The notes under the pieces were generated by a model. That model was not told the DNA's origin. It saw only the letters and a program-made list of their open reading frames with translations, and did no database searches. From positions 2,714,501-2,778,500 of the forward strand of contig NC_087073.1 of NCBI RefSeq assembly GCF_026151205.1: 64,000 nt of DNA, read 5' to 3'. Made by a program: the position numbers and the translations under genes. Below, piece after piece: positions 22,048 through 58,054 of this stretch. This stretch comes from Bolinopsis microptera. Its lineage: Eukaryota > Ctenophora > Tentaculata > Lobata > Bolinopsidae. Position 1 is the stretch's first letter. The number at the start of each line of letters is the position of its first letter.

Positions 22048-23706
22048 TTACTGCAATTTAAAATTGGTTGGAGTCCAGGTATCTTTTAAGTCAGCTGCCT
22101 GTGATTGTACTAATAGTGCTTTGGTTCTCAATTTTATCAAGTTAATGGAAGTTTCTAGGCAATTGCTTGAAGTTAAAATTTTTTTATGAACTGTGTTCCA
22201 AAGCTTGGCTGCATTAAACAAAAAGGTATTTGATTTATTTAGAAGAATAACAGTTAGACTCGTTGCACGGTTTGAAATGTTGATGGCCTCATAAAGGGAG
22301 TAGGGGCAGTGGTACTTGATAATCTTAGAGAATTCTAAAATGCAGTGATATTTGTACAAGTTTTGAGCCGTTAGAATTTTTAGTCTATTAAAAATGGGTT
22401 TTGTATGCTCCTTTTCAAAGTGTTTATGGTCTAATTTTTGCATACCATACGGTCTAGTACGTGCACATGTTGATTGTTTATCTAAATATGAGTCGAGATC
22501 ACCAAAAAGGATCCTTACACAGTGCTTCTGTGTGATAAAAAGACTGTCATTTGATCGTTCTTTAAGGACAACGCCCCAAACACTTATACCATAACTGAGA
22601 TGTGATTCAAAAAGAGCGTTATATATTTTCAAATATAGTTCACCAGGTATCGAGTGTCGAATTCTACAGATTGCACCAGTCATGGACCGAAGTTTTTTAC
22701 GAATGTAGTGCATATGGGCAGCCCAGTTTAACTTACTATCTATAACAATACCTAGGAATTTGGTATCCTTGACTTTGGTAATAACCTTACCATCGATGAA
22801 TATTGACCTAGACTCATCTAGCAGGTTAGCAAATGGTCTGGTCCTTGCACAGGTCTCATCATATTCAGAAGCAGGTTTAAAATGGATGTAGCAACATTTA
22901 GACATATTGATATGGAGTAGATTACATTTCATGTAAATCGACACATGTTTAAGAACTAAGTTTGCTTTTTTGTATGTTGCTTCTCTAGATGGTCCTGATA
23001 TAAAGATATTAGTGTCATCAGCATAAAGTACAAATTTCACCTCACTCTCAGAAAAACAGTTCACTATATCGTTCATATACAGTAGGAAGAGTAACGGCCC
23101 TAGAATTGACCCCTGTGGTACCCCAAATTTCACATCCAATGTTTCTGATGGTACATCGTTATACATAACATACTGCTTTCTGTTAGTCAAATAGCTTTTA
23201 AGTAAGGTAAGTGCTGTGCCCCTAATACCATAGGAGTTTAATTTGCTTAGAAGAATGTTGTGGTCAAGGGTGTCGAAGGCTTTGCTTAAGTCAATGAATA
23301 TTCCTAAGACATGTTTATTGCCAGCTAGAGTCTTTGTAACGGAGTCTATAGATTTGTGTAGAGCATGAGTGGTGGAATGACCTTTTCTAAATCCAAACTG
23401 TGAGTCTGTCAGTACACCTTTAGATGTGAAGAAATTATAGAGCCGTTTGTAAATGATCTTCTCGAAAATTTTTCCAAATAAAGGTAATATTGATACAGGC
23501 CGATAGTTTTCAATACATTCCTTATTGTCTTTCTTGTAAATAGGAATAACTTTACCAGTTTTAAAAATACTCGGGAATGTACCACTTTGTATACATGTGT
23601 TGTAAAGCCTGGCCAAGGTACCAGCTATGAGCTTTGATGATTTCTTTACAACAATTATTGGTATGTCACTCGCCTTGCCATTTTGAAAATCTTTGATCAC
23701 CTCAAT
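22048..23706 (-). pseudogene. LINE ORF2, reverse-transcriptase half
   Basis: This is the C-terminal half of the LINE ORF2, about 550 residues after the insertion point. Conserved reverse-transcriptase blocks appear in order: NGKASD, then FKTGKVIPIYKK, NYRPVSILP, FGFRKGHSTTHAL, FIDLSKAFDTLDH with a catalytic Asp, GVPQGSILGPLLF, and the YADD box at about 23025-23014. A typical LINE C-terminal region follows. The open frame runs leftward from inside the palindromic element's terminus, but those extra codons belong to the inserted DNA. This half has no internal stops. It is separated from its endonuclease half (33173-34918) by 9.46 kb, and is inactive as it stands. Confidence 0.9.
23701..23706. 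repeat. Left target-site duplication CTCAAT
   Basis: CTCAAT occurs immediately outside the left terminus of the palindromic element and again immediately outside its right terminus (33167-33172). Both copies fall on codon borders of the interrupted LINE ORF2. Confidence 0.9.
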
Positions 23707-24516
23707 AGTAGTATATATACATACACCTGGCCCCCAATCACCTAGGTGTGAACTGCCCCCGGGGCCTCCCCGGGCTGAGCTGCCCCCGGGAGCTGCCCCG
23801 GGGAGCTGAGGGACTGCCCCGGGGAGCTGAGGGACTGCCTCGGGGAGCTGGGGAACTGCCCCGGGAACCAGGGGCAATCGCAACAACAATCACCACAGCA
23901 ATAGCCCGGGAGGCGGGAACTCGCCCGGACAGACCCCTCCCCCGGGCTGATCCGAGTTTGAACAGAGGTCGACTGTGCACACACCTATTGCATTTAGAAC
24001 GGTGACAGGCACCACACTGAGCTGCGGTGAACACCGATGCAGTGTTGCTGATGATTCTGGGCCTTCCCCGAACTCCCCCGGAACGAGCTCCCCGTGAGCC
24101 AGGTGTGAAATCTCCTCGGAACGGCCCCGGGGACCCTCGAGAGATTAATCGTTCATTTGTTGTTGAGTTCGATTGTTTAGTTTCACACCTTACTCTCGAA
24201 CTGGAACAAGACATCTCAGATGAAAGTATAATTTTATTTTGTAGTGAATATTTTGTCCACGGGGCACACAAAACTGTCCCGGGCCCTTGTTCCTAAGTGC
24301 GAACTCCGCGAGTCTGGTGTGATCTTTCTTAGAGCACGAGAACTTTTATTGCAATAGATCCCTCGGTGTGAACCCGACCCTCCCAGAGCAATAGTTCCCG
24401 CAATTTGCAGCAAGTACTTGCTACAGCAAAATCTACACAATCATATTTCAACTTACCCTCCCGATCTCCGCGTGATCACTCCCGGAATTATTATGTTTAT
24501 CATCATTTCATATGTG

Positions 24517-24864
24517 TTATCTTTGAAACAGCAATCTACGACACGGCGAGACCAATTTTTGTTTACACTTGATGTCTAGTAATGCTACATAGTATTTCAC
24601 AAGTCCGTTTTTTATTTTCAACTTGAACTCGAGCTCTGGACACACAGAACTAGTAGCAACAATTGACGCTGCATTATTATTTTGAGGTGCGACAATTGTT
24701 TGAAGAGAGGATTTCATAAATGTATCATGAGACCGTGATATATGTTGAATATTGTCAAACCTGCTCCCCCGTATTACGCCTGATTTACTTGAAATTCGTT
24801 TACCAATTTTGTAAACATGATTATTTGTTGTTTTTTTGAAGAGAAGTGACTGAAAAGGTGCCAA
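24517..24864 (-). CDS. Hypothetical 115-aa protein in left arm
   Basis: This open frame of 115 codons is rich in Lys, Ser and Asn. It has an exact counterpart at 32009-32356 in the other arm. It reads toward the nearby element terminus. I recognise no domain, and splicing to other exons is possible. Because the arms are nearly identical, conservation between the two copies does not prove coding. Its direction is opposite to that of the zinc-finger gene in the same arm, leaving about 630 bp between them that could serve as a divergent promoter region. Confidence 0.35.
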   Translation of the reverse strand: MAPFQSLLFKKTTNNHVYKIGKRISSKSGVIRGSRFDNIQHISRSHDTFMKSSLQTIVAPQNNNAASIVATSSVCPELEFKLKIKNGLVKYYVALLDIKCKQKLVSPCRRLLFQR

Positions 24865-25493
24865 TTTTTCAATTCTGGGACTTGCAACAAAACGTTAGTT
24901 TGTCAGGTGAGTCAGTCATAATGTTAAACTTGAAGAGTAGCGGTTGAAACATGTATATACAATTTTTAATTGTTGAGTATTCTACGTATTCCAACAACAT
25001 CTTGTTTTTCTTCATTTTGCTAATTCCGGGAAGCATTAATTTTACGCTTCCATCATATTGTAAGATTTAAAATTGAGTAATTATAGGACTGTCAAATATT
25101 GCTACCAAATTTACAGGGGTCAATAACAGATAGTGATCCAATCACGTGACCGTTAATCCTTTCACGATACAGTATTACTCCTTACGGACATAAACCATGT
25201 AGTGAAACTCACAGCTAGGAGCTCTACGTTTGAGACTCTGGCTAGGGAGAACTATGATATCCACCTTCACGAGATGCATGCCACACCAGCTAATTACAGA
25301 TTAAAGCAAATCCCAGCTACAGTTTTCAGTTTATTCAACCGAATCCGTTTTCCCTTTTGAATTATATGATGATTTAGTAACAGTGCTAATTTTTCATAAA
25401 TCATCACGTAAAACATTGCAGTGTCTAGAACTGGTGACGATGCAACAAGACTGAACAATATCAAAACAACATTCAAGCAAAATTGAGCGATGT

Positions 25494-26204
25494 TTGAGTA
25501 AATTGCTGAACAGTCCCCAAGTATATAAAGAGAACAAGGTTGGAAATTCATTTCAATCAGAGATGTCGGTGTTTTGTCCTCTCTGCGATAAACAATTCGC
25601 AAACAAGCAAAGTCTGTCCTCACACAAAAGTCGGTATCATCGGAAGAAGGGAGAATCACACACAAGTTCTATCAACCACCCACCGTCAAAAGCTTATGTG
25701 ACTGGTGTAAAAAGGGATAATCCTGAATATTCAGACGCTGATACAACAATATCTGAAGAAGATTATCAAGACAGTTCTAACTCTGAAGTAGCAAGTGTTG
25801 ATGATGAGTCAAAAACAGAATCTGATCATATGACAAGTAGAGATAAGCTAGACTCTGACTCCCTGTGGCCACAAAAATGTAAGCGGAAAGGAGAACCAAT
25901 CAAACAAATAAACAAAAAGGTGAAGATGTCGAAATTTATTAAAACTTTAGACGTTCTGTCACAAAGAAAGTTATGTAAGGAGGAAGACAAATGTTTTGAC
26001 TTTTTATCCTCTTACATAATGAAAAATGAAGTGTTTGAGACATTGAAGCAGCGACTCAATAACTCTAGGCAAGACATGGCCACCGTTTTAAGTTTGGAAG
26101 AACGAGCTTTATTGGATGCAGTAATTACAACTACAAGTCTATCTGATGTCAACAAGCTAATGAACGAGAATAAAAAAATCGTCAGTAAGATTCTTGAACT
26201 TTAA
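25494..26204 (+). CDS. C2H2 zinc-finger protein of the palindromic element, left copy
   Basis: The frame of about 236 codons reads toward the element centre; the likely start is the Met opening MSKLLNSPQ or the later one in MSVFCPLC. One classical C2H2 finger lies at about residues 27-49 (CPLCDKQFANKQSLSSHKSRYH). An acidic, Ser-rich linker follows (TTISEEDYQDSSNSEVASVD), then a basic patch KRKGEPIKQINKKVKMSK and a C-terminal helical domain. A single finger plus basic and helical regions suggests a DNA-binding accessory or regulatory protein of the element, by inference only. The last residues differ from the right-arm copy because of a one-base length difference in an A-run near 26173: this copy ends IVSKILEL, the other is shorter. 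Confidence 0.65.
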   Translation: MSKLLNSPQVYKENKVGNSFQSEMSVFCPLCDKQFANKQSLSSHKSRYHRKKGESHTSSINHPPSKAYVTGVKRDNPEYSDADTTISEEDYQDSSNSEVASVDDESKTESDHMTSRDKLDSDSLWPQKCKRKGEPIKQINKKVKMSKFIKTLDVLSQRKLCKEEDKCFDFLSSYIMKNEVFETLKQRLNNSRQDMATVLSLEERALLDAVITTTSLSDVNKLMNENKKIVSKILEL

Positions 26205-27728
26205 CCGTTGTTAACTATTGTTAAGTTTAATAATGAACATATAGTTGTTGAATATTTTGGATCAAATTGACACTGTGTTGAATATTACAGTACACATGTT
26301 ACTGCATGTTGTTGAAATTATAATTATATTTCTGGATTTAAAAGTATGATTGATATTGTACTCAAGGTTGTACACAATTTTAAATAAACTGGTGGTGTTT
26401 TTGCGTTGATCTTTAATCCAGCACAAGAGCTGTAGTACCATCCGCAGGCCATCCACCTCTTTTGGGGTCAATATCTTTTCATAGTTAGGTTTCGACTCTA
26501 GTAAACAAACCTATCCACTAATGATGATACAGACAAAGTTACTAACCTGTTTAACAGCCCTAGGCCTACCCTACTGCCAGCTCAATACTGTATCTTTTTG
26601 GTGTAGGGTAATTGTATAGAACCATAGACAGTATTTTTTTTGGTGTTGATCCAGCATGAGAGCTTAAGTGAACAATGAGGAGGTTCATGTAACCCTTTTC
26701 TTGTGACGACCACCGATGTAGTGTTGATGATCTCCTTTGTATGGTCATGATTCAAGAGGATCAGGTGTTCAATGTAATGACATTTCTGTATACTACCCAA
26801 CTGTTGGCGATCACTGCTTCTTGTGTGATCCTCATTCACACGACTGTTACAACTCCAAGTGACATGCAACAACACATTTGTAGGATGCTCTCAAGACACA
26901 TGCTACTGCACTGTTAAATTGCTGATAGGCGATTGTAAGGACGATTGTTCACGTAAATACGACGTCTGGGATGACAGAAGAAGAGTGGACCCCTGTAGAT
27001 CCATCTGGGGACCGTCATTGCTGTGGTGATTGTTGTTGTGATTATTTGTGAAGATGTGATCCTCCGATATGATGTCCCTGCTTGCTCCTGCCTCTTGATA
27101 CTGGCTGTGATACCCCCTGGTCAGATCGGCAAGCTTTTTATTCCTTTGGTATCATTAATTGCACGGTTTTTCATGGCTACCTTTGGAAATGCTTATGGCC
27201 TCCAGAAATTTAAACATGCTCATGATTTTTATACAACAGTGGAATCATGAGTTTGGGTATTTTACTCCAAAAGGATAGATTATCAAGGATTTTCATAGAT
27301 TTTCAGGATTATCAAGGATATCAAGATTATCAAGGATTTTCATAGATTTTATAGATATATCACAATCGAAAGAGTCATCAGAGATGACAGACTTTTCTGA
27401 GAAAGCAGTGTTTTGAAAATTTAGTTCGGGACTTCCCAGACTTCCCAGGCTTCCACTGGCGGGCCCTGCGCAGAGAATGAGGGGGGCGCAGAAGGGAAAT
27501 CACGGGATGTCTGGGAAGTCTACTGTCACACCTATCATTATTATCATTTGCCTATCATTATTATCATTCACCTATAATTATTATCATCTGTCTTTCATTA
27601 TTTGAAATTTTTTATCATTATTACCACTTATTTAATATTTAGTGAATAAACAATTAAAACGAACTGTTACTATAAATTGTAATATGTGAAAATTACTTTA
27701 AACTCTGTTATCCCTCTAGGGAAGGAAA

Positions 27729-28304
27729 CTAATAAATATCAATTACATTTAGAAAACGACCATTACTGGCTATCCAACCAATAACAAAGTAACTGTCACC
27801 AACTTTTAATTCAGGGATGATTTTGAACACTAAGTTGCTTTCAAAAATAACTGGTGTAAAAGTTTTATGTCCATCAGCAAAATATAATTCAAGTCTGTAA
27901 CCCTTTGAGCTCTCGTACTTCTTTAAAGTATACGATACAAGTTTCATTTGTGCATTAACTCTCTTCGAATGTTCAGCTTCTGATATAGCACTACACCCCA
28001 AACACTCAATTCTCTGTGCATTCATAGCTTCCAACGAAGAGTAGCACACTGGACAATTGTCTATTTCAGCAGGTATCATGTTGATGAGTTGAGGGAAGTT
28101 ATTCTTGAAGGAATACTGTACTTCAACCTCCTCGCCTATCTTGAAAGGTTCCATCGTTGCTTTCTTTAGAAGTAATGAATCCCAAACGTTGAACTTCAAA
28201 TGTTTTGTTTTAAACGGTATATTTGTAGTAACTGTTAACCTCGTATACCCTCTTTCTACTGGTCGAACTTCTGATATAAACCCGTAACAGTTGAAGAAAG
28301 CCAT
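27729..28304 (-). CDS. OB-fold/zinc-ribbon-like protein, 191 aa
   Basis: The protein opens with a beta-rich stretch (VERGYTRLTVTTNIPFKTKHLKFNVWD) split into short strands, then FKIGEEVEVQYSF at residues 54-66, a pattern typical of OB-fold barrels. A CPVC (84-87) and CLGC (101-104) pair could bind one zinc ion. A second beta-rich segment ends with LKVGDSYFVIGWI and a C-terminal NVIDIY. OB folds with an embedded zinc ribbon occur in RPA70-type single-strand DNA-binding proteins, so a replication or recombination role is a reasonable inference. Other OB proteins cannot be excluded. It is intact, intronless and reads in the same direction as its neighbour. Confidence 0.55.
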   Translation of the reverse strand: MAFFNCYGFISEVRPVERGYTRLTVTTNIPFKTKHLKFNVWDSLLLKKATMEPFKIGEEVEVQYSFKNNFPQLINMIPAEIDNCPVCYSSLEAMNAQRIECLGCSAISEAEHSKRVNAQMKLVSYTLKKYESSKGYRLELYFADGHKTFTPVIFESNLVFKIIPELKVGDSYFVIGWIASNGRFLNVIDIY

Positions 28305-28574
28305 TTTGAAACGTAGTTGCCGATGTAAAACAAGAAATGAGTTCCAACATTGTTGTATCGAGCTTATAGTTATAGTGTTATACTTATTCTTTAGGTAAGT
28401 TACTGGTTAACACTTTAAGACCCTGTCCAGTGTTCGCATATATTTGTTGTCATTAATTATGGTTGTGATATCCGACAAATACTTTTCATGATGTAGTGTA
28501 TCCAAAACTACATTTTCAAATCAATAAAATTATTTAAAATTATGTGATCATATGAAAAGTATTAATATTTCAGT

Positions 28575-29162
28575 TTAAGGATTATCCTCTTTTATTTTGA
28601 GAACCTGGTTACAATCAAGTTCTGTACTAACATACACATTATTATTGGATGACTGAATAAGCTGTTTTAATATGCTAAATCCCTTAGTTTTAGATTCAAG
28701 CAATACTCCTGCTGTAAACGTTAAAATAAAAAAATAGAAATAATTTACATCTGACTCCAAATTGTAAACAGGAGTGGCAGGAGGTTCAATGTCTATAGCA
28801 GTGATTATTGGAGAAATAAATGTGAAGTGTTCAAATTCAGTTTGTTGAATTTCTCCATTATATCTCTGTAACAACATATCAACTTCATCGATTTTGAATC
28901 CTTTCCAGGAGAATAGAAAGCTATCCCTCTCTATAGTCGCGTTAAAGAGTGAAAACATCTTCCCATGATCGCGATTCAAATGTAAAAACAATGTTTTGTC
29001 TTCACGGTACAAGTGTGCTGTTTTATTGACCCCCTCAAAGAAGAAGTAGTCTTGTGTTTTGTTTGAATTAACTGGAAATTCAATGACGAAGGCCAGTGAA
29101 GAAACTACACTAAATAAAAAATTAAAGTTCATGATTGAAAGGGGGAGGGGGTAAGACTTCAT
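28575..29162 (-). CDS. Predicted secreted/membrane glycoprotein, 195 aa
   Basis: The likely start is Met11 (ATG at 29132), giving a classical signal peptide (MNFNFLFSVVSSLAFVIEF). The presumed extracellular part of about 110 residues has three N-glycosylation sequons (NKT at 34, NKT at 46, NAT at 74) and few cysteines. A hydrophobic span at about 141-155 (YFYFFILTFTAGVLL) is followed by a tail of about 40 residues with Lys and Asn, so a type I membrane topology is predicted. I recognise no family. A membrane glycoprotein is unusual cargo for a DNA transposon and may point to a virus-like ancestry, which is speculative. Confidence 0.55.
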   Translation of the reverse strand: MKSYPLPLSIMNFNFLFSVVSSLAFVIEFPVNSNKTQDYFFFEGVNKTAHLYREDKTLFLHLNRDHGKMFSLFNATIERDSFLFSWKGFKIDEVDMLLQRYNGEIQQTEFEHFTFISPIITAIDIEPPATPVYNLESDVNYFYFFILTFTAGVLLESKTKGFSILKQLIQSSNNNVYVSTELDCNQVLKIKEDNP

Positions 29163-30683
29163 TGCTTTTATACCCTTATGGAACGATGTGTTACGATGTC
29201 ATATTAAGTAAACATATCCCGAGCAAGTTTAATTGAATCCCTGGTTATTGTAAATGGGTTGAAAATTTCAAATAATGAAAGACAAATGATAATAATTATA
29301 GGTGAATGATAATAATGATAGGCAAATGATAATAATGATAGGTGTGACAGTAGACTTCCCAGACATCCCGTGATTTCCCTTCTGCGCCCCCCTCATTCTC
29401 TGCGCAGGGCCCGCCAGTGGAAGCCTGGGAAGTCTGGGAAGTCCCGAACTAAATTTTCAAAACACTGCTTTCTCAGAAAAGTCTGTCATCTCTGATGACT
29501 CTTTCGATTGTGATATATCTATAAAATCTATGAAAATCCTTGATAATCTTGATATCCTTGATAATCCTGAAAATCTATGAAAATCCTTGATAATCTATCC
29601 TTTTGGAGTAAAATACCCAAACTCATGATTCCACTGTTGTATAAAAATCATGAGCATGTTTAAATTTCTGGAGGCCATAAGCATTTCCAAAGGTAGCCAT
29701 GAAAAACCGTGCAATTAATGATACCAAAGGAATAAAAAGCTTGCCGATCTGACCAGGGGGTATCACAGCCAGTATCAAGAGGCAGGAGCAAGCAGGGACA
29801 TCATATCGGAGGATCACATCTTCACAAATAATCACAACAACAATCACCACAGCAATGACGGTCCCCAGATGGATCTACAGGGGTCCACTCTTCTTCTGTC
29901 ATCCCAGACGTCGTATTTACGTGAACAATCGTCCTTACAATCGCCTATCAGCAATTTAACAGTGCAGTAGCATGTGTCTTGAGAGCATCCTACAAATGTG
30001 TTGTTGCATGTCACTTGGAGTTGTAACAGTCGTGTGAATGAGGATCACACAAGAAGCAGTGATCGCCAACAGTTGGGTAGTATACAGAAATGTCATTACA
30101 TTGAACACCTGATCCTCTTGAATCATGACCATACAAAGGAGATCATCAACACTACATCGGTGGTCGTCACAAGAAAAGGGTTACATGAACCTCCTCATTG
30201 TTCACTTAAGCTCTCATGCTGGATCAACACCAAAAAAATACTGTCTATGGTTCTATACAATTACCCTACACCAAAAAGATACAGTATTGAGCTGGCAGTA
30301 GGGTAGGCCTAGGGCTGTTAAACAGGTTAGTAACTTTGTCTGTATCATCATTAGTGGATAGGTTTGTTTACTAGAGTCGAAACCTAACTATGAAAAGATA
30401 TTGACCCCAAAAGAGGTGGATGGCCTGCGGATGGTACTACAGCTCTTGTGCTGGATTAAAGATCAACGCAAAAACACCACCAGTTTATTTAAAATTGTGT
30501 ACAACCTTGAGTACAATATCAATCATACTTTTAAATCCAGAAATATAATTATAATTTCAACAACATGCAGTAACATGTGTACTGTAATATTCAACACAGT
30601 GTCAATTTGATCCAAAATATTCAACAACTATATGTTCATTATTAAACTTAACAATAGTTAACAACGGTTAAAGTTCAAGAATC

Positions 30684-31379
30684 TTACTGACGATTTTTTT
30701 TATTCTCGTTCATTAGCTTGTTGACATCAGATAGACTTGTAGTTGTAATTACTGCATCCAATAAAGCTCGTTCTTCCAAACTTAAAACGGTGGCCATGTC
30801 TTGCCTAGAGTTATTGAGTCGCTGCTTCAATGTCTCAAACACTTCATTTTTCATTATGTAAGAGGATAAAAAGTCAAAACATTTGTCTTCCTCCTTACAT
30901 AACTTTCTTTGTGACAGAACGTCTAAAGTTTTAATAAATTTCGACATCTTCACCTTTTTGTTTATTTGTTTGATTGGTACTCCTTTCCGCTTACATTTTT
31001 GTGGCCACAGGGAGTCAGAGTCTAGCTTATCTCTACTTGTCATATGATCAGATTCTGTTTTTGACTCATCATCAACACTTGCTACTTCAGAGTTAGAACT
31101 GTCTTGATAATCTTCTTCAGATATTGTTGTATCAGCGTCTGAATATTCAGGATTATCCCTTTTTACACCAGTCACATAAGCTTTTGACGGTGGGTGGTTG
31201 ATAGAACTTGTGTGTGATTCTCCCTTCTTCCGATGATACCGACTTTTGTGTGAGGACAGACTTTGCTTGTTTGCGAATTGTTTATCGCAGAGAGGACAAA
31301 ACACCGACATCTCTGATTGAAATGAATTTCCAACCTTGTTCTCTTTATATACTTGGGGACTGTTCAGCAATTTACTCAA
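30684..31379 (-). CDS. C2H2 zinc-finger protein of the palindromic element, right copy
   Basis: Inverted duplicate of the left-arm gene, with the same finger, acidic linker and basic patch. It has one visible residue change (Val for Glu after KRKG) and a frameshift near the end: an A-run one base longer replaces the last residues, so this copy ends NENKKNRQ, five residues shorter. The loss is small and at the extreme C-terminus. Whether both copies are expressed is unknown. Confidence 0.6.
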   Translation of the reverse strand: MSKLLNSPQVYKENKVGNSFQSEMSVFCPLCDKQFANKQSLSSHKSRYHRKKGESHTSSINHPPSKAYVTGVKRDNPEYSDADTTISEEDYQDSSNSEVASVDDESKTESDHMTSRDKLDSDSLWPQKCKRKGVPIKQINKKVKMSKFIKTLDVLSQRKLCKEEDKCFDFLSSYIMKNEVFETLKQRLNNSRQDMATVLSLEERALLDAVITTTSLSDVNKLMNENKKNRQ

Positions 31380-32008
31380 ACATCGCTCAATTTTGCTTGA
31401 ATGTTGTTTTGATATTGTTCAGTCTTGTTGCATCGTCACCAGTTCTAGACACTGCAATGTTTTACGTGATGATTTATGAAAAATTAGCACTGTTACTAAA
31501 TCATCATATAATTCAAAAGGGAAAACGGATTCGGTTGAATAAACTGAAAACTGTAGCTGGGATTTGCTTTAATCTGTAATTAGCTGGTGTGGCATGCATC
31601 TCGTGAAGGTGGATATCATAGTTCTCCCTAGCCAGAGTCTCAAACGTAGAGCTCCTAGCTGTGAGTTTCACTACATGGTTTATGTCCGTAAGGAGTAATA
31701 CTGTATCGTGAAAGGATTAACGGTCACGTGATTGGATCACTATCTGTTATTGACCCCTGTAAATTTGGTAGCAATATTTGACAGTCCTATAATTACTCAA
31801 TTTTAAATCTTACAATATGATGGAAGCGTAAAATTAATGCTTCCCGGAATTAGCAAAATGAAGAAAAACAAGATGTTGTTGGAATACGTAGAATACTCAA
31901 CAATTAAAAATTGTATATACATGTTTCAACCGCTACTCTTCAAGTTTAACATTATGACTGACTCACCTGACAAACTAACGTTTTGTTGCAAGTCCCAGAA
32001 TTGAAAAA

Positions 32009-32356
32009 TTGGCACCTTTTCAGTCACTTCTCTTCAAAAAAACAACAAATAATCATGTTTACAAAATTGGTAAACGAATTTCAAGTAAATCAGGCGTAAT
32101 ACGGGGGAGCAGGTTTGACAATATTCAACATATATCACGGTCTCATGATACATTTATGAAATCCTCTCTTCAAACAATTGTCGCACCTCAAAATAATAAT
32201 GCAGCGTCAATTGTTGCTACTAGTTCTGTGTGTCCAGAGCTCGAGTTCAAGTTGAAAATAAAAAACGGACTTGTGAAATACTATGTAGCATTACTAGACA
32301 TCAAGTGTAAACAAAAATTGGTCTCGCCGTGTCGTAGATTGCTGTTTCAAAGATAA
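32009..32356 (+). CDS. Hypothetical 115-aa protein in right arm
   Basis: Exact inverted counterpart of 24517-24864. No domain is recognised. See the left copy for what can be said. Confidence 0.35.
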   Translation: MAPFQSLLFKKTTNNHVYKIGKRISSKSGVIRGSRFDNIQHISRSHDTFMKSSLQTIVAPQNNNAASIVATSSVCPELEFKLKIKNGLVKYYVALLDIKCKQKLVSPCRRLLFQR

Positions 32357-33166
32357 CACATATGAAATGATGATAAACATAATAATTCCGGGAGTGATCA
32401 CGCGGAGATCGGGAGGGTAAGTTGAAATATGATTGTGTAGATTTTGCTGTAGCAAGTACTTGCTGCAAATTGCGGGAACTATTGCTCTGGGAGGGTCGGG
32501 TTCACACCGAGGGATCTATTGCAATAAAAGTTCTCGTGCTCTAAGAAAGATCACACCAGACTCGCGGAGTTCGCACTTAGGAACAAGGGCCCGGGACAGT
32601 TTTGTGTGCCCCGTGGACAAAATATTCACTACAAAATAAAATTATACTTTCATCTGAGATGTCTTGTTCCAGTTCGAGAGTAAGGTGTGAAACTAAACAA
32701 TCGAACTCAACAACAAATGAACGATTAATCTCTCGAGGGTCCCCGGGGCCGTTCCGAGGAGATTTCACACCTGGCTCACGGGGAGCTCGTTCCGGGGGAG
32801 TTCGGGGAAGGCCCAGAATCATCAGCAACACTGCATCGGTGTTCACCGCAGCTCAGTGTGGTGCCTGTCACCGTTCTAAATGCAATAGGTGTGTGCACAG
32901 TCGACCTCTGTTCAAACTCGGATCAGCCCGGGGGAGGGGTCTGTCCGGGCGAGTTCCCGCCTCCCGGGCTATTGCTGTGGTGATTGTTGTTGCGATTGCC
33001 CCTGGTTCCCGGGGCAGTTCCCCAGCTCCCCGAGGCAGTCCCTCAGCTCCCCGGGGCAGTCCCTCAGCTCCCCGGGGCAGCTCCCGGGGGCAGCTCAGCC
33101 CGGGGAGGCCCCGGGGGCAGTTCACACCTAGGTGATTGGGGGCCAGGTGTATGTATATATACTACT

Positions 33167-33172
33167 CTCAAT
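33167..33172. repeat. Right target-site duplication CTCAAT
   Basis: Second copy of the 6-bp duplication that flanks the palindromic element, at the start of the LINE endonuclease half. Confidence 0.9.
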
Positions 33173-34918
33173 GATCTCGTCTTTATTAGTTTCTTCTAGA
33201 TAAATGGAGTCAGATACTGAATTTGACATGAACTGAGCAAATGATTCCATTGGTTCCAGAGAAATACTATTGTTCGTCAGTACATTTTTATTGAGATTAC
33301 TTGCAAGAGATGTAAAATATTCACAAAATTTGTTAGCAATTATTCGTCTGCAGGTAACTCTCTGACCGTTTATGACAAAATCGTCCTTACATCGAGACAT
33401 AGTTTTACCACGGAGTTCATTAATAACTTCCCACGTCTTTTTCGAGTTCATGCTGTATTTTTCGAATTTTCTAGTGTAGCACATAGCCTTTGCCATATTT
33501 ATTGAGCTTTTGAGAAACTTGTCGAATTCCTTGTAGCAAATGTGCTTATTCGGATCCCCGTCAGGTAATTTTAATGTACAAGTCTTTTTCCATTCGAAAT
33601 ACAATCTAGCTTTCTTCTCGATGGAATTAATTAGGCCCTGGGTAATCCAAGGGTTGGTTATGCTATTACGTTTAGTGGTTCTTGGAGTTAGAAGTTTGCA
33701 AGACAAGTCTATTTTTTCTTGAAATAGCTGCATAAAAGAGTCAAATGTGTCACAACTGTAGTGGAACCTATCTAAATCGTTTTCTATTTCAAGACAGAGC
33801 TTCTCTAGGTTAGCATTACTATAGTCATAGTGTATAGTAATTTTGTCTGGTGAATCAGATAGTGACACAGAGTCGGGGGAAAGCTTAACAAAAGTGAATA
33901 TAGGGTGGTGATGGGAGATCTTGTCAGATATGACACCAGAGATAAGGGATTGGTCTAATACATTGGTGTGGATATTGTCAATACAAGTCCTGGAGCAACC
34001 AGGCATATGGTGAGTTGGCACTGATATGGCTGGTATAAAGCCATTGTTAAATATTATTTCTTGGAATTTGTCCTCTGATGAAGATGGGTGGTTTAAAATG
34101 TTAACATTGAAATCCCCAAGGATATATACCTTCTTGCCATTCAGTTTAGAGAGAATACGTTCATATGCTTTGTTAAACAGTTCAAGTGATGCGTTTGGAG
34201 GACGGTAGATAACCCCTACAACGGTTGGGTCTTTCATACTGGTGATAGATACAAACAGTGATTCTATGTGCTCATTACAGAGAGATAATCCAGTAATCTT
34301 ATTAAAGTTTAGAGAGTTTTTCAGGTAAAGACAAACTCCTGATCCTTTAGCCTTGAACTGGTTTTTGTCTTGACAGAAATAACGGGATTGGTAACACGAG
34401 GAGTATCCACTGAGCTGATATAGTGTTCCATTGTCAGCATCAGTGTTTGTTTCTGCAAGACCAATAACAGAAAACTTGTGGTTTATACTAGACTGCTCAA
34501 CTGCAAAGTTGTCAAAGTTTGTTGCATTCCCATCAATGTTGAAGAATAAAGTGGACATATATTCGACTGAATTTCCAGGCAGGGTGGTGGCATTCAACTC
34601 TGTTATGGAGAATGTTTTGCAGTTTTCAAGAATTTTTGAGCTGTTGTAGATAGATTCAATATAATTAACTGGCTCATCATCAATAAGGCCGTTGTTAGCA
34701 AAGTGGGGAGCTTGGTAGAAAGGGTTGTATCGAATAATATCGTTGGCTTCAATACAGACTTTGCAGTATATTTCATCTCGAAATTTGACTATGTTGTCAT
34801 TAGTTTTGCATTTTTTGTGCATTATTTTGTCACACATCTGACAAATTATGAAAGGGTGTCCAGCTCGTACAGGTTTATTGCAGCAGCAGCAAATTTCGCA
34901 TATCAATTTAACTATCAT
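33173..34918 (-). pseudogene. LINE ORF2, PHD finger and endonuclease half
   Basis: The ATG at 34918 overlaps the ORF1 stop (ATGA). Residues 7-55 form a PHD/treble-clef-like Cys/His cluster (CEICCCC, CQMCDKIMHKKC, CKVC). An APE-type endonuclease follows: Glu156 in GLAETNTD, VVGVIYRPPNAS, Asp269/Asn271 in ILGDFNVNIL, and Asp332 with His336-338 in SDKISHHHP. A linker of about 200 residues leads to the reverse transcriptase, which lies at 22048-23706 beyond the insertion. All endonuclease catalytic positions are present, so this was a recently active sequence. The frame is broken only by the palindromic element. Confidence 0.88.
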
Positions 34919-36891
34919 GACTGTAATATAGATCTACGTGGTCGTGGGGAAAATCTGCCTCTATCTTTGTTATTAACAACATCACTGAATGATCTCCCGT
35001 CAACAGGGCTACCAAATATCTTGTGAGCAAAAGCCCGGGAGAGTTTGAATATACCGTTTGATCCAAGGTGAAGTGGGTCATCCGGCTTCTTATATCTACA
35101 AAACTGCTGATTCAGCAGACCATCTTCGTCAACAAAGCTATTAAAATCTAATGTACCTATTCTAGAATTGGTATCACAGTATCCAAATAAAAACCTGTTA
35201 AACTCCATAGCCCTTTCGTTCAGCAAGGAGGACCTAGTTGGCAATATAGGTGAAACAATTATTTTAGCGTAAGGGCACAATTCACTTATAGTCTTGAGCT
35301 TTTTGTTCAGCTCATTTGCCCAATATTTAACATTCCCCCCATCATTCTTGATGTTGTTTACTCCACAATGAACTATAATGTTTTTATAACCTACACAAAG
35401 GGTAGGATCTAGCTTATCTATGGTGAAGCATTCTATTCTTCTTCCAGGCAAGCGGTGTCCAAATGTTCCTTTTCCAGACCCAAATCGGAGGTACCGGGTA
35501 TTGGAGTCACCAATAATCAGTGTCGCATTGGTGCTACTGCTTATGTATCGGAAGGTGATACTATATCGTAGGTGTCTCTTTTCCGTGCTTTTATCAATTC
35601 TGTGGTCCCAGTGAAACTGAGACTGTTTGCTCATAACATAGAGACTGCATCCCTCTACTGTCTCTACAATCTCCCCTTCAAGATCACTTTTTTTTGTGAA
35701 CTTGACAGAGCATTCTCCTCCTAAGGATACTGTAAAGATGGAACTATCATGGACCAGTGACTGTTCGTTATCAGAGTGCTTAGGAAGGAAGCTGTTCTCG
35801 TCGGTGTATCGGTTTATCAGGCACTGGTTAGTCACTGATCCTGGGTGCTGATCTTTTATTTTAGAGGCTAGCTCAGCAAGAACCTCAGGGAGTTCTGTTG
35901 ATTTGGGCTTTGCAGCTTTAGCTCCAGGGTAGTCGTACGGTTCGCCAAAGCTCAGAACGTCATGGCCATTCTCTGAGTTTCCATCAAAGGCTTCCTTCTG
36001 TTGATTAAGGAAAACCAGCAGCTTAGTGTTTAAGTCTGTGTCTATGAAGTCCGGGACATACGACACAATGTGCTTGGACTTGGAATCCTCTGCACTTGCA
36101 TGCTTCTGCGCATCCAGAAGGAGCTGTTCATTGACTGTCTCAGATGCTGCTGGTGACCCTATGTTAAAAGGTGGCATGGGAAGGTCAGGAGTGGACACAT
36201 TTGATGATCTACTGTTTTTAAAACAGTTGATGTCTAGTTTTAGTTCAGCGAGCTTTGTGTTGATGGAGTCAAGAGTCCTAAGATGGCTATCATTGTCTTT
36301 CAAGTTTTTAATGGACGTCTGAATGGCTTCTAAGGACTTGTGTATGGAGCTTTCGTCTGAGGTAGTATGACCCATTAGAATGCTGGAGGGAGCTGACAAG
36401 TAGGAAGGGGACTTAGCATCGTCACATTTCTTGCCACTCACTACAGCACAAACATTTTCAGCAAGCCCAAGCAAGGATAGGAGACCCTCTGCAAGGGTGA
36501 TTTTGTTAAGAGAAGAACAACCCTTAACCATGGATGGTGTAATGATTGCAAATTTGTTGATATCAATTTTGAGAATGCTACAAATGTTCAGCTTGATTAT
36601 GTCTATCTCTGAGCGTAGGCTCTGCGAATGGGTCAACAGAAAGTTGTCGAGGGGGGCAGACCCATTTGAGAAGAAACTTAGAAGGCTACTACAATTTTTA
36701 TGTTCTGTTGATTCGTGGTATTCTGAAAGAATTATTTTTTCAACGTCCTTCAGTACTTCGTCAATATCTCCAATGACGGTAGGAGTGTTGGATGTAGTCT
36801 GGTCCGGAACCGTGGTAGAAGGAGTCTGGTCCGGAACAGGTTGAAGAGTCTCACCATTTTCTGGGCGAGTGTCAGTGGGGGTTTCCATCAT
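34915..36891 (-). CDS. LINE ORF1 with AlkB-like dioxygenase and SGNH hydrolase domains
   Basis: The frame extends to 37035, but the most probable start is the double Met at 36891, giving about 658 residues. Residue numbers here count from 37035. A Thr/Pro-rich N-terminus and a helical region come first. At about 340-500 there is an AlkB-like Fe(II)/2-oxoglutarate fold with His420-x-Asp422 (PKHSDNE), His478 (HWDHRI) and Arg490...Arg496 (RYSITFR). At about 505-675 there is an SGNH/GDSL esterase with GDSN (509-512), GVNN (558-561) and DPLH (653-656). The esterase is known in CR1/L2-type ORF1 proteins; the added AlkB-like domain is unusual. The C-terminus is basic (RGRFSPRPRRS), probably RNA-binding. 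The frame is intact. Confidence 0.85.
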   Translation of the reverse strand: MMETPTDTRPENGETLQPVPDQTPSTTVPDQTTSNTPTVIGDIDEVLKDVEKIILSEYHESTEHKNCSSLLSFFSNGSAPLDNFLLTHSQSLRSEIDIIKLNICSILKIDINKFAIITPSMVKGCSSLNKITLAEGLLSLLGLAENVCAVVSGKKCDDAKSPSYLSAPSSILMGHTTSDESSIHKSLEAIQTSIKNLKDNDSHLRTLDSINTKLAELKLDINCFKNSRSSNVSTPDLPMPPFNIGSPAASETVNEQLLLDAQKHASAEDSKSKHIVSYVPDFIDTDLNTKLLVFLNQQKEAFDGNSENGHDVLSFGEPYDYPGAKAAKPKSTELPEVLAELASKIKDQHPGSVTNQCLINRYTDENSFLPKHSDNEQSLVHDSSIFTVSLGGECSVKFTKKSDLEGEIVETVEGCSLYVMSKQSQFHWDHRIDKSTEKRHLRYSITFRYISSSTNATLIIGDSNTRYLRFGSGKGTFGHRLPGRRIECFTIDKLDPTLCVGYKNIIVHCGVNNIKNDGGNVKYWANELNKKLKTISELCPYAKIIVSPILPTRSSLLNERAMEFNRFLFGYCDTNSRIGTLDFNSFVDEDGLLNQQFCRYKKPDDPLHLGSNGIFKLSRAFAHKIFGSPVDGRSFSDVVNNKDRGRFSPRPRRSILQS

Positions 36892-37140
36892 GGTGAAGAG
36901 GCAATGGGGGTACCAGGCAGACCAGGGGGCACCTTCACGTCCAACTAGCACACTCACTGAAAAGAAGGAAGAGCAGAAAGCAGTTTGAAATGTTCTGTTG
37001 TGGAAAACAATGAAAGTGTAAACTGGATTAGTCAAAATGATTCAAAAGATTGATTGAAAAATTGAACAGACTGACGGACTACGACACATGGGACAAGAGA
37101 GTGGGTGAGTATGAAAAATATGAGGTGGTTGGACTGGCAA

Positions 37141-37894: not shown

Positions 37895-40800
37895 CTAGAG
37901 TGGTGGGTCTGCACTTGAGAAGAGTGAGTCTGGCCGCTAGAATGGTGGGTCTGCAATCTGGAATTGGGTCTGGCAACCAGAATGGTGGGTCTGCAATCTA
38001 GAAGTGGGTCTGGCAACCAGAATGATGGGTCTCTACCCTTAAAGAGTGGTCTGTTAACCAGAATTGTGGGTCTACACCCTTGAAGAGTGGGTCTAACAAC
38101 CAGAATGGTGGGTCTGCACTTGAGAAGAGTGGTTCTTTCGGCTGGAATGGTGGGTCTGCATTCGAGAATAATGAGTCTTCACTCTCTAGAAGAGTGGGTC
38201 CGGCAACCAGAGTGGTGGGTCTGCACTTGAGAAGCGTGGGTCTGGCCGCTAAATGGTGAGTCTGCACCCTTTAAGAGTGGGTCTGACAACCAGAGTGGTG
38301 GGTCTGGACTTGAGAAGAGTGGGTCTGGCAGCTGGAATGGTAAGTCTGCAATCTAGAAGTTGGTCTGGCAACCAGAATGGTGGGTGTACGTATACCCTTG
38401 AAGAGTGGGTCTGACAACCAGAGTGATGGGTCTGTACCCTTGAAGAGTGGGTCTGACAACCAGGGTGGTGGGTCTACACTTGAGAAGAGTTGGTCTGGCA
38501 GCTAGAATGGTGGGTCTGCGATCTAGAAGTTGGTCTGGCAACCAGAATGGTGGGTGTACGTACACCCTTGAAGAGTGGGTCTGACAACCCGAGTGGTGGA
38601 TCTGGACTTGAGAAGAGTGGGTCTGGCAGCTGGAATGTTGGGTCTGCAATCTAGAAGTGGGTCCGGCAACCAGACTGGTGGGTGTACGTACACCCTTGAA
38701 GAGTGGGTCTGACAACCAGAGTGATGGGTCTGTACCCTTGAAGAGTGGGTCTGACAACCAGGGTGGTGGGTCTACACTTGAGAAGAGTTGGTCTAGCAGC
38801 TAGAATGGTGGGTCTGCGATCTAAAAGTGGGTCTTGCAACCAGAATGGTGGGTTTGCTTTCTTGAAGAGTGGGTCTGACAACCCGAGTGGTGGGTCTGGA
38901 CTTGAGAACAGTGGGTCTGGCAGCTGGAATGGTGGGTCTGCAATCTAGAAGTGGGTCCGGCAACCAGACTGGTGGGTGTACGTACACCCTTGAAGAGTGG
39001 GTCTGACAACCAGAGTGGTGGGTCTGCACTTGAGAAGAGTGGGTCTGGCAGCTAGAATGGTGGGTCTGCAATCTAGAAGTGGGTCTGGCAGTTAGAATGG
39101 TGGGTCTGCAATCTAGATGTGGGTCTGGCAACATGAATGGTGGGTCTGCACCCTTCAGGCTTAAAGAGTGGGTCTGACAACCAGTGGTAGATCTGGACTT
39201 GAGAAGTGTGGGTCTGGCAGCTGGAATGGTGGGTCTGCAATCTAGAAGTTGGTCTGGCAACTAGAATGGTGGGTCTGCACCCTTCAGGCTTCAAGAGTGG
39301 GTCTGACAACCAGAGTGGTAGATCTGCACTTGAGAAGAGTGGGTCTGGCAGCTGGAATGGTGGGTCTGCAATCTAGAAGTTGGTCTTGCAACCAGAATGG
39401 TGGGTTTGCTTTCTTGAAGAGTGGGTCTGACAACCCGAGTGGTGGGTCTGGACTTGAGAAGAGTGGGTCTGGCAGCTGGAATGGTGGGTCTGCAATCTAG
39501 AAGTGGGTCCGGCAACCAGACTGGTGGGTGTATGTACACCCTTGAAGAGTGGGTCTGACAACCAGAGTGGTGGGTCTACACTTGAGAAGAGTTGGTCTAG
39601 CAGCTAGAATGGTGGGTCTGCGATCTAAAAGTGGGTCTTGCAACCAGAATGGTGGGTTTGCTTTCTTGAAGAGTGGGTCTGACAACCCGAGTGGTGGGTC
39701 TGGACTTGAGAAGAGTGGGTCTGGCAGCTGGAATGGTGGGTCTGCAATCTAGAAGTGGGTCCGGCAACCAGACTGGTGGGTGTACGTACACCCTTGAAGA
39801 GTGGGTCTGACAACCAGAGTGGTGGGTCTGCACTTGAGAAGAGTGGGTCTGGCAGCTAGAATGGTGGGTCTGCAATCTAGAAGTGGGTCTGGCAGTTAGA
39901 ATGGTGGGTCTGCAATCTAGATGTGGGTCTGGCAACATGAATGGTGGGTCTGCACCCTTCAGGCTTAAAGAGTGGGTCTGACAACCAGTGGTAGATCTGG
40001 ACTTGAGAAGTGTGGGTCTGGCAGCTGGAATGGTGGGTCTGCAATCTAGAAGTTGGTCTGGCAACTAGAATGGTGGGTCTGCACCCTTCAGGCTTCAAGA
40101 GTGGGTCTGACAACCAGAGTGGTAGATCTGCACTTGAGAAGAGTGGGTCTGGCAGCTGGAATGGTGGGTCTGCAATCTAGAAGTTGGTCTTGCAACCAGA
40201 ATGGTGGGTGTACGTACACCCTTGAAGAGTGGGTCTGACAACCAGAGTGGTGGGTCTGGACTTGAGAAGAGTGGGTCTGGCAGCTGGAATGGTGGGTCTG
40301 CAATCTAGAAGTTGGTCTGGCAACCAGAATGGTGGGTGTATGTACACCCTTGAAGAGTGAGTCTGACAACCCGAGTGGTGGGTCTACACTTGAGAAGAGT
40401 TGGTCTGGCGGCTAGAATGGTAGGTCTGCGATCTAAAAGTGGGTCTTGCAGCCAGAATGGTGGATCTGCACTTGAGAAGAGTGGGTCTGTCAGCTGGAAT
40501 GGTGGGTCTGCAATCTATAAGTGAGTCTTGCAGCTAGAATAGTGGGTCTGAAATCTAGAAGTGGGTCTTGCAACATGAATGTGGGTCTGCACCCTTAAAG
40601 AGTGGGTCTGGCAATCAGAATGGTACGTCTACACTCTATAAGAGGTGGATTTTCGCCCTAGAAGGGTGAGTCTGGAAACCAGAAAGGTGGGTCTACAATC
40701 TGGAATAGTGGGTCTGGCAACCAGAATTGCGGGTCTGCATTCTAGAATAGTGGATCTTCACTCTAGAAGAGTGGGCCTGGCAACCAGAATGGTAAGTCTA

Positions 40801-41727
40801 CACTCTGTCAACCAGATTTGGGGGTCTATAAACTAGAATATAGGAGATATGGCTACCAGAATTGTGGGTTTGGACAACCCGAATGGTGGGTCTTCACTCT
40901 AGAATAATAGGTCTGGTGGGTCTACACTTTAGAAGAGTGGGTCTGGCAACTAGAATGGTGTGTCTGCAATCTATAAGAGTGGGTCTGGCAACCAGAATAG
41001 TGGGTCTGCAATCAAGGGAATCAAGATGAGTGAGTCTGGCAATCAGAATGGTGGGTCTGCACCTTAGGGTAGTGGGTCTGGAAACAAGAATGGTGGGTCA
41101 GAATTCTTGAATAGTGGGTCTTCACTCTAGCTAAGAGTGGGTCTGGCAACAAGAATGGTGGGTAAGAATTCTAGAATAGTGGGTCTTCACTCTAGAAGAG
41201 TGGGTCTGGCAACCAGAATGGTAAGTCTACACTCTGTCAAGTGTCAACCAGAATTGGGGGTCTAAACTAGAATATAGGATATATGGCAACCAGAATTGTG
41301 CGTCTGGAGTCTAGAGTCTAGAATAGTGGGTCCGGCAACCCGAAAGGTGGGTCTTCACTCAAGAATAGTGGGTCTGGCAATCGGAATGGTGCGTCTACAC
41401 TCTAGAAGAGTGGGGCTGCCAACCAGAATGGTAGGTCTTCGTCTTAGAAGAGTGGGTCTGGCAGCTAGAATGGTGGGTCTGCATTTTAGAATAGTGGGTC
41501 TTGACTCTATACCTACTAGAAGAGTGGGTCTCCTCTCTAGAAGAGTGAATCTGGCAACCAGAATGGTAATTCTTCACTCTGTCAACCAGAATTGGGGGTC
41601 TATGAACTAGAATATAGGAGATATGACAACCAGTCTGGACTCTAGAATAGTGGGTCTGGCAACCAAAATGTTGAGTCTGCACTCTAATAGAGTGGGTCTG
41701 GCAACTAGAATGCAGACACGTAGCCAA
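37895..41727. repeat. 3.8-kb minisatellite, GGGTCTGGCAACCAGAATGG family
   Basis: Units of about 30-40 bp are built from GTGGGTCTGGCAACCAGAAT, GGTGGGTCTGCACTTGAGAA and similar variants, tandem for nearly 4 kb. A higher-order period of 804 bp is visible: 38745-39260 recurs almost unchanged at 39549-40064. Units become more diverged toward the right end. The many long open frames here on both strands are repeat artefacts, since the units rarely contain stops. Confidence 0.95.
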
Positions 41728-47569: not shown

Positions 47570-48553
47570 ATGTTAACACGGATTAAAAGATCCACAACAG
47601 TTGCTGATAAAGAAAGAAGTAACAGAAATTTAATTTCGATCAAAAAGGAAATAAAAACTGAACAGGAGGAACAGGAGGATGTGACTAGAATATCACATGG
47701 TTTCATTTGTCCGAAATGTGAAGCTCACTTCCTCTATGATGATTTCTTTGTGGAACATATCAGAGAACATCATGATGAAAAAATCAATGATATGTCTACT
47801 AGAAATTTCTTGTTAAATTCTTTACGATCATCAGACAGGTTGGGCAAAGAAAGTACTTCTCCTGTTGAGAGTGCTTTTAAATGTGACGATTGTTCTTATA
47901 CCTGTACTGAGAACAGTAATCTTGTGAAACATTTACGTATTCACACGGGAGAGAAATCCTACGAATGCCAGGAATGTTCATATTGTAGTGCTCAGAAAGG
48001 TGATCTCAAGAAACATATGAGGACTCACACGGGAGAGAAACCCTACAAGTGTAAGGAATGTTCATATTGTAGTGCTCAGAAAGGTGATCTCAAGAAACAT
48101 ATGAGGACTCACACGGGAGAGAAACCCTACAAGTGTAAGGAATGTTCGTTTCATAGTGCTCAGAAAGGTGATCTCAAGAAACATATGAGGACTCACACGG
48201 GAGAGAAACCCTACGAGTGTAAGGAATGTTCATATACTTTCTCTGTTAAATCAAGTCTTATCAGACACCAACGTACTCACACGGGAGAGAAACCCTACAA
48301 GTGTAACCGATGTTCATATTGTAGTGCTCGGAAAGGTGATCTCATTAAACATATGAGGACTCACACGGGAGAGAAACCCTACAAGTGTAAGGAATGTTCA
48401 TATTCTTGTGCTCAGAAAGGTCAGCTCTCATTACATTATATAAGGACTCACACTGGAGAGAAACCCTTCAAGTGTAAGGAATGTTCATATACTTGCTCTG
48501 ATAAATCAAGTCTTGTCAGACATCAACGTACTCACACGGGAGAAAAACTCTAA
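47570..48553 (+). CDS. C2H2 zinc-finger protein, array unit 1 (327 aa)
   Basis: The N-terminal leader MLTRIKRSTTVADKE is followed by [12 protein letters not shown], which holds two overlapping SUMO-acceptor consensus sites (IKKE, IKTE). An isolated finger (FICPKCEAHF...HIREHH) follows, then a linker and eight fingers joined mainly by TGEKP linkers, nine in all. Fingers have the form C-x2-C-x12-H-x3-H with a CSYxC start. Recurrent recognition helices are QKGDLKK (three times), VKSSLIR, RKGDLIK, QKGQLSL and DKSSLVR. One finger has an extra Tyr between the zinc histidines (LHYIRTH). A nuclear sequence-specific DNA-binding protein is expected; the target is unknown. Confidence 0.88.
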   Translation: MLTRIKRSTTVADKERSNRNLISIKKEIKTEQEEQEDVTRISHGFICPKCEAHFLYDDFFVEHIREHHDEKINDMSTRNFLLNSLRSSDRLGKESTSPVESAFKCDDCSYTCTENSNLVKHLRIHTGEKSYECQECSYCSAQKGDLKKHMRTHTGEKPYKCKECSYCSAQKGDLKKHMRTHTGEKPYKCKECSFHSAQKGDLKKHMRTHTGEKPYECKECSYTFSVKSSLIRHQRTHTGEKPYKCNRCSYCSARKGDLIKHMRTHTGEKPYKCKECSYSCAQKGQLSLHYIRTHTGEKPFKCKECSYTCSDKSSLVRHQRTHTGEKL

Positions 48554-49117
48554 ATTTGTCAGGAATGTTCTCATATAACAACTTTTATACTTGTTCTGAT
48601 CAGTCACACTTTATTAGATACCAGCGTATTCACGGGTAAAGAATGTCAGTTTACTTCCACTTTTATATTATTAGTTGAACAACAACGAGGTATGATCTAT
48701 GGTTGCATTTAAAGTGTAGAAATAATCTCCACCAATGTTTAGAGCTATGTTTGAAATGAATTTTTCAGATTTTTAAATGAAAGAATTTTGCAGTTTGTTG
48801 CACAAATAAGTAAGGAATTAATCATAATCTTTGATATATTATTAGATATATCTAACCATTAATTGAATCCCACTGATTTTGTCTTGTCTCAATAGTAGAA
48901 ATTAGTAAATGACGTATCGTTTTTCCACAATCTATATTATTTGTTATTTTTATAATATGACTATGATATGACATTTATTAACTGCATTATAGCTGCATGG
49001 TACTGATATAATATAGATATCTGAGGGCCCGAGGGGGTCTATTGGAATTATATAGACATTTGGAAAGTTTGTCTATTTTTATTTTATTAATCAGTTATTA
49101 ATGCAGGAAAGTTTGTC

Positions 49118-57994: not shown

Positions 57995-58054
<60 letters not shown>

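Follow-up and report, generated by a model that had tools for sequence, protein, structure and literature searches.

Mavericks, or Polintons, are virus-like elements; their particles have yet to be observed (PMC8097293). Intact vertebrate Mavericks are described as flanked by 6-bp duplications, as bearing (AG)3 or (AGT)2 end motifs, and as having terminal repeats of 46-1,447 bp in a total of 12.7-24.6 kb (PMC8097293). Very long terminal inverted repeats and repeat-only copies are known from Galileo and other Foldback-like elements (PMC3573991), and adeno-associated virus (AAV) forms snap-back genomes, symmetric or asymmetric, in which either end may be duplicated and whose replication is helper-dependent (PMC8235507). 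Here we describe an element of 9,460 bp, a near-exact palindrome, at positions 23707-33166 of a 64,000-nucleotide stretch of the genome of the ctenophore Bolinopsis microptera (C2:2714501-2778500, hereafter the window). It is probably a non-autonomous, self-complementary satellite of Polintons, mobilised in trans, which arose by snap-back copying, whose arms are renewed together and whose zinc-finger gene takes an active part.

Two inverted arms enclose a unique centre, and the whole splits an open reading frame (ORF) of a long interspersed nuclear element (LINE). In window coordinates the features are as follows.

22048..23706, minus strand: interrupted LINE ORF, 3' part (reverse transcriptase)
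23701..23706, no strand: target-site duplication CTCAAT, left copy
23707..27611, plus strand: left arm of the palindrome, 3,905 bp
23707..24430, plus strand: outer left arm, homologous to ends at loci L016, L017, L018 (both ends) and L022
23788..23865, plus strand: G+C-rich 21-bp tandem repeat, left terminus
25563..26204, plus strand: arm gene, left copy, 213 amino acids (aa), a single C2H2 finger at the N terminus, C-terminal part conserved
27612..29261, no strand: unique centre, 1,650 bp between the arms
27729..28304, minus strand: 191-aa candidate single-strand-DNA-binding protein in the centre, 52.5% identical to a Polinton gene product
28437..28517, minus strand: 27-codon vestige, 52% identity (E 2.6e-4) to the end of an L028 gene
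28575..29162, minus strand: 195-aa protein in the centre, putatively membrane-bound, related to two Polinton gene products at 36% and 75.5% identity
29262..33166, minus strand: right arm of the palindrome, 3,905 bp
30684..31310, minus strand: arm gene, right copy, frameshifted near its 3' end
32443..33166, minus strand: outer right arm, mirror of 23707-24430
33008..33085, minus strand: mirror 21-bp tandem repeat, right terminus
33167..33172, no strand: target-site duplication CTCAAT, right copy
33167..34918, minus strand: interrupted LINE ORF, 5' part (endonuclease), second CTCAAT included

Alignment of the arms shows 2 substitutions and 2 one-base indels between them; together the arms make up 83% of the element (7,810/9,460 bp), and both of its ends read AGTAGTATATATAC. 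The original prediction, made from the letters of the window, had described almost identical inverted arms of 3,905 bp that account for more than 80% of the element, an exact CTCAAT duplication within a LINE ORF and intact genes in the centre. All of this held, the duplication on reading the flanks and the joined frame, and the intact genes as two ORFs of 191 and 195 aa. Chance alone comes nowhere near accounting for a near-exact palindrome of 3.9 kb with a 6-bp duplication at its borders. If the flanks are joined computationally with one CTCAAT removed, they give a LINE frame of 1,134 aa, endonuclease part followed by reverse-transcriptase part, in which the sole stop is the terminal one. The insertion was therefore precise, and the frame that it interrupted is otherwise still open.

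The outer 1 kb of the element was searched against the host genome (264.65 Mb in 232 contigs), which gave at least 54 matches. Four further palindromic loci belong to the subfamily of the window element, one of them interrupted, and each has its own 6-bp duplication.

C9:11008525-11017595: palindromic copy, duplication CATCTC
C3:10809991-10819071: palindromic copy, duplication CATACC
C8:4793556-4802562: palindromic copy, duplication AACGAC
C1:22023559-22041277 (L013/L014): palindromic copy interrupted by other DNA, duplication ACGTGA

Perfect 6-bp duplications flank nine of the ten elements read at both ends (the window element, L009, L010, L011, L013/L014, L018, L033/L034, L035 and L037). The exception, L019, lacks its right tip and shows no duplication; it is a further copy of L018, shares its left flank and is hence probably a segmental duplicate of that locus. 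L018 itself, on C5, is a 7.1-kb relative with related ends, the duplication CTCCCC and a polymerase piece, in which there is no large palindrome. From C7:7228344 onward a single arm is present in the 10 kb read. Loci L012, L016, L017, L020, L022 and L025 were read at one end and stand outside the duplication count.

Long palindromes are a known type of assembly chimaera, and a fold-back chimaera was considered. Such an artefact is very unlikely, because the four additional palindromic copies each carry a 6-bp duplication of their own, and we rejected it on the strength of these five loci and of the empty site, which reads in frame. The window copy also lies about 3% from the other copies while its own arms agree.

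A separate observation concerns L012:1050-4852, where a 3.8-kb near-perfect palindrome (97.6%) lies inside another element. The ends of that element, which shares the outermost ~96 bp of the window element, do not start with AGTAG, and the element has no detected zinc-finger gene.

The arms of the palindromes change in concert. We compared eight arms from four complete copies (window, C9, C3 and C8), taken to their true ends. Of the 121 variable columns free of gaps, 106 have matching arms in every element, and the remaining 15 each show a mismatch between the arms of just one element. Most of the concerted columns (86/106) set the window copy against the other three, 10 group the window copy with C8 against C9 and C3, 8 distinguish just one of the other copies, and 2 show three states. 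Divergence between the arms of one element is 0.05-0.25%; it is 2.7-3.1% between the window copy and the others, ~0.7% between C8 and either C9 or C3, and 0.11-0.19% between C9 and C3. The C1 copy, whose arms align at 99.0% over 4,770 columns, has a 2.1-kb insertion that is absent from the window element and occupies matching positions within the zinc-finger gene of each arm (L013:6250-8402 and L014:4263-6404), flanked by a 9-bp overlap of arm sequence. A 4.1-kb insertion farther out is found in one arm only. Changes, including an insertion, appear to have passed from arm to arm, whether during replication or by conversion after insertion.

Conversion is also part of a different account, which we regard as unlikely: the element would be an ordinary internal-deletion derivative of a Polinton, whose terminal repeats grew longer passively, through ectopic recombination and gene conversion, in the way suggested for Galileo. 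Under that account the mirror build plays no part in movement and the genes are passengers. The 2.1-kb insertion in both C1 arms is explained equally well by conversion or by replication, and the relatives at L018 and L019 are of the deletion type, with related ends and a polymerase piece. The Galileo paper proposes recombination-driven repeat expansion and states that expansion of Polinton inverted repeats had been reported previously (PMC3573991). What such a derivative does not readily explain is the recurrence of the same gene in inverted pairs at 35 loci, the existence of a palindrome without a detected spacer (L037), and the constraint on the genes presented below.

The recurrence emerged when the arm protein was searched against the genome, which gave 128 rows (150/163 candidates scored). 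Among the 88 rows of at least 122 bits, 70 form 35 opposite-strand pairs within 9 kb, and none has a same-strand neighbour among the 88 within that distance. Several of the 40 weaker rows are further pieces of the same genes, and those at C9:6712557, C4:8128949 and C11:8115958 supply opposite-strand partners to otherwise unpaired rows. The paired genes point outward in 30 of the 35 cases and inward in 5, the inward five being the window subfamily. Where both arms exceed 200 bits (29 pairs), 18 pairs score within 0.2 bits and the largest gap is 30.3. In the 200-218-bit subfamily 13 of 16 pairs lie within 0.2 bits, against a mean of 1.07 and a maximum of 6 in 2,000 shuffles, equal bit scores being only a proxy for equal arm sequence. 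The three outward loci read, out of 30, are all palindromes with AGTAG ends and 6-bp duplications.

C3:5321661-5329357: outward palindrome, arms ~3.4 kb, spacer 936 bp, duplication TCATCA, ends AGTAGATGG
C2:16850743-16856667: outward palindrome, arms ~2.5 kb, spacer ~0.8 kb, duplication CGTAGG, ends AGTAGTGTAAG
C21:62595-68713: outward palindrome, 6.1 kb, no detected spacer, duplication AATTTG, ends AGTAGTGTAAG

Kinship with Polintons had been suspected from the six-base duplications and the AG termini, and both signs were borne out. The duplications are of 6 bp, and the ends of the element, AGTAGT (AGTAGA in the L033 type), fit the (AGT)2 motif given in PMC8097293. The outer ~720 bp (23707-24430) is 76-92% identical to the five ends tested, the matches at L017 and at the left end of L018 covering only the first 414 bp; of L016, L017, L018 and L022, Polinton coding matches occur at L016 and L018 only. 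The right end of C11:10486100-10504926 (L015/L016) matches this outer segment over 174 bp at 85% and over 344 bp at 91%; in the window these two stretches are separated by additional G+C-rich sequence. The same C11 element has an 865-aa open frame that matches a PHROG DNA polymerase family (E 2e-6) and a piece of rve integrase (E 8.6e-6, under the Pfam cut-off); tblastn also gave matches there to the protease and the putative capsid. For the L033 type (C3:5321661), each end of the 18.4-kb C1:8045654-8064101 carries the terminal 28-mer with 3 mismatches, the two being oppositely oriented; this C1 locus contains a gene of the 191-aa type. Two palindrome types thus each have a Polinton-like counterpart with related ends, neither of them demonstrably intact. 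For ends of the AGTAGTGTAAG type, no Polinton counterpart was found in this genome.

The centre of the window element points the same way. A Polinton at L027/L028 (C11:6939000-6958800) has an integrase (rve E 1.9e-12, chromo E 4.2e-13), an adenovirus-type protease (E 1.5e-6) and, in our own reading, polymerase pieces and putative capsid genes; Pfam gave no match for its putative capsid protein. It carries relatives of the 191-aa protein (52.5% identity) and of the 195-aa protein (36%), and a second Polinton locus, L029, holds a closer relative of the latter (75.5%). The vestige at 28437-28517 resembles the L028 gene that adjoins the relative of the 191-aa gene. Because of these relatives and the vestige, the centre looks like a rearranged piece of a Polinton, and to judge by its sequence the element as a whole is non-autonomous and Polinton-derived. 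Set against the idea of a simple deletion derivative, this result cuts both ways: the derivation agrees with it, but a one-off deletion fails as an account because the inverted-pair zinc-finger gene recurs at many loci.

As a side observation, the Polintons of this genome fall into groups at 98-100%, 85%, 56-64% and 34-36% integrase identity to the L027 query, and some have open integrase frames and identical copies.

The window element itself lacks the genes by which a Polinton would be recognised, as had been predicted. A tblastn search (E up to 1e-3) with proteins of a single Polinton from this genome, namely the polymerase in three pieces, the integrase, the protease and the putative capsid proteins, gave no match anywhere in the window, and none of the 96 genome-wide integrase matches falls within the interval of the element. 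The predicted lack of a transposase agrees with the Pfam scan, which returned no transposase match in the three element proteins scanned. The arm protein has a single C2H2 finger and no catalytic family match, its Pfam zinc-finger matches all lying under the curated cut-off; the frameshift in the right-hand copy comes from a one-base length difference in an A run. An AlphaFold model of the 191-aa protein, of moderate confidence (predicted local distance difference test, pLDDT, 76.7; predicted template modelling score, pTM, 0.50), is mostly beta and consists of two halves joined by a low-confidence linker that bears four invariant cysteines. We infer from this model two barrels resembling the oligonucleotide/oligosaccharide-binding (OB) fold, and hence putative single-strand-DNA binding; that the 195-aa protein is putatively membrane-bound is likewise our reading. 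A search of 5.8 billion proteins found 8, 12 and 4 relatives, all unnamed. For the three proteins PHROGs gave only weak matches to families of unknown function, and sequence searches of the PDB gave no matches or only weak unrelated ones. Scans of viral contigs with the zinc-finger and single-strand-binding alignments yielded 217 and 5 pattern matches, none confirmed, and nothing of use was found in phage records.

The prediction had left the class of the element between a parasite of Polintons and a new superfamily. Termini, outer ~720 bp, duplications and centre genes favour the former, while the termini and duplications, being those of Polintons, speak against the latter. Of the genes detected, the zinc-finger gene alone is shared by all four of the palindrome types examined, and its conservation across them would suit a separate autonomous superfamily whose zinc-finger protein itself acts at the ends and whose Polinton similarity is borrowed. 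Against it stand the lone C2H2 finger of the protein, which matches no catalytic family, the Polinton-type ends and 6-bp duplications, and the sharing of ends with polymerase- and integrase-bearing elements; we regard that reading as very improbable.

Comparisons between copies and between palindrome types bear on selection on the genes. Between the four palindrome types the arm zinc-finger gene has a ratio of nonsynonymous to synonymous substitution rates (dN/dS) of 0.34-0.44, the comparisons with L038 (0.35-0.48) being left out because the context of that locus is unsettled. In the two centre genes, 12 of 20 changes between the window and C8 copies are synonymous where ~21% are expected (P 0.0002). 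The 195-aa gene has 6 of 13 synonymous changes between window and C9 (P 0.038), and the 191-aa gene 5 of 8 between window and C3 (P 0.015); these comparisons are not independent, and window-C8 is the strongest of those made. Against its L029 relative, the 195-aa gene has a dN/dS of 0.22. From these ratios and counts, the genes of the element are probably not mere debris, for the arm gene the sign being seen only between subfamilies. The constraint between palindrome types, and that apparent in the centre genes between copies, argue against passenger genes in a passively expanded deletion derivative.

The replication of Mavericks has been inferred from that of their relatives. On the satellite reading, the ends of the satellite would carry the recognition and replication sequences of Polintons, a Polinton elsewhere in the genome would supply the DNA polymerase for linear, end-primed copying, and its integrase, acting in trans, would insert the satellite with a 6-bp stagger. 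The first palindrome may have arisen when a displaced Polinton strand snapped back and copied itself, which would make both halves copies of one end. In later rounds a single strand could fold into a hairpin with a 3.9-kb stem and serve as its own template, so that both arms would be renewed together. Folding back at different points would give the variable spacers (from none detected to 1,650 bp), and mirroring of different end segments the inward- and outward-facing forms of the arm gene. The zinc-finger gene, present in both arms, would be active in the satellite cycle, its product most likely binding the ends.

Several observations weigh against this interpretation. The search for a longer relative sharing the termini, suggested with the prediction, did lead to the polymerase- and integrase-bearing C11:10486100-10504926, but this Polinton is degraded, its left end was not found, and Pfam detected no polymerase domain in its frames. 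The integrase matches of C1:8045654-8064101 (8050293-8051326) carry internal stops, and the zinc-finger protein of the satellite shows only weak homology with Polinton proteins. Among the 88 strong zinc-finger rows 18 are unpaired, and a weak fragment at C13:4364709 lies on the same strand as a strong row, 3.6 kb away. One unpaired locus, L038, has no inverted repeat of at least 150 bp in the 9.9 kb read. In the window subfamily, moreover, the arm gene shows no constraint (2 of 12 changes synonymous, dN/dS 1.2-1.3), which also favours a passive deletion derivative. The C9, C3 and C8 copies are closely alike, so that the evidence for concert is mostly one comparison, and gene conversion between arms after insertion could likewise yield concerted arms. 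Finally, the satellite is known here from inherited genomic copies alone, rather than from movement, an extrachromosomal form or a particle.

Locus L038 was also considered as proof of a zinc-finger gene native to Polintons. At L038:3036-8715, a gene related to the single-strand-binding type and one related to the satellite zinc-finger gene lie ~4.4 kb apart, and the spacing to the integrase departs by ~11.5 kb from that in the C9:6175240 copy. This suggests an insertion, a satellite nested in a Polinton; the proof was not sustained, and the locus is counted neither for nor against it.

Elsewhere in the window, the LINE is associated with a 706-aa ORF (34915-37035) that has a 2-oxoglutarate and Fe(II)-dependent (2OG-Fe(II)) oxygenase domain, AlkB-like (E 5e-17), and a GDSL lipase match under the cut-off, a pairing unusual in a LINE. 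A 3.7-kb tandem array (37895-41567) has 21-, 42- and 128-bp periods, is G-rich on the plus strand and shows strong GC skew. A cluster of C2H2 zinc-finger genes built of 84-bp finger repeats occupies 47570-57819, and a run of 58 G lies at 57995-58052.

Beyond the single element, the palindromes may form a long-lived, inherited lineage parasitic on Polintons, with its own zinc-finger factor for end binding or replication, diversified into several subfamilies, an idea that we entertain with slightly more doubt than belief. Heritable, multi-copy mirror-image satellites with concerted arms would preserve a record of the way in which Polinton ends are copied, and would reveal germ-line genetic parasites of Polintons, of the defective-genome kind. 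The satellite reading predicts hairpin or linear extrachromosomal forms.

Among the literature matches listed, no title or abstract opening mentions palindromic or non-autonomous Polintons; subscription papers, Repbase and Dfam lie outside that search. In its ends the class is not new, and mirror-image Polinton satellites with a conserved zinc-finger gene are a variant unseen among those matches. With Polintons the window element shares (AGT)2-type ends, 6-bp duplications, related terminal sequence and two centre genes that have Polinton relatives; it differs in having no detected polymerase, integrase, protease or capsid gene. It is also shorter, at 9.46 kb, than the intact vertebrate Mavericks described in PMC8097293, and its terminal repeats of 3,905 bp are longer than theirs.

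Galileo and Foldback-like elements resemble the palindromes in their very long terminal inverted repeats and repeat-only copies, but Galileo has 7-bp duplications and a P-element-type transposase, where the elements described here have 6-bp duplications and Polinton-type ends. Membership of that group (P superfamily) was rejected on the length of the duplications and the lack of a transposase match. The snap-back genomes of AAV offer the likeness of a half-genome mirrored on itself; AAV is a parvovirus, whereas the palindromes described here are insertions that are inherited and flanked by duplications of 6 bp. Genomes in incomplete adenovirus particles have one end duplicated at the other. 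They are comparable in that linear replication is primed from the ends and one end is lost in favour of a mirrored copy, but they are transient products, whereas the palindromes are heritable insertions. If the lineage proposed above exists, which we hold with the same reserve, it may be to Polintons what snap-back defective genomes are to viruses, in heritable form.

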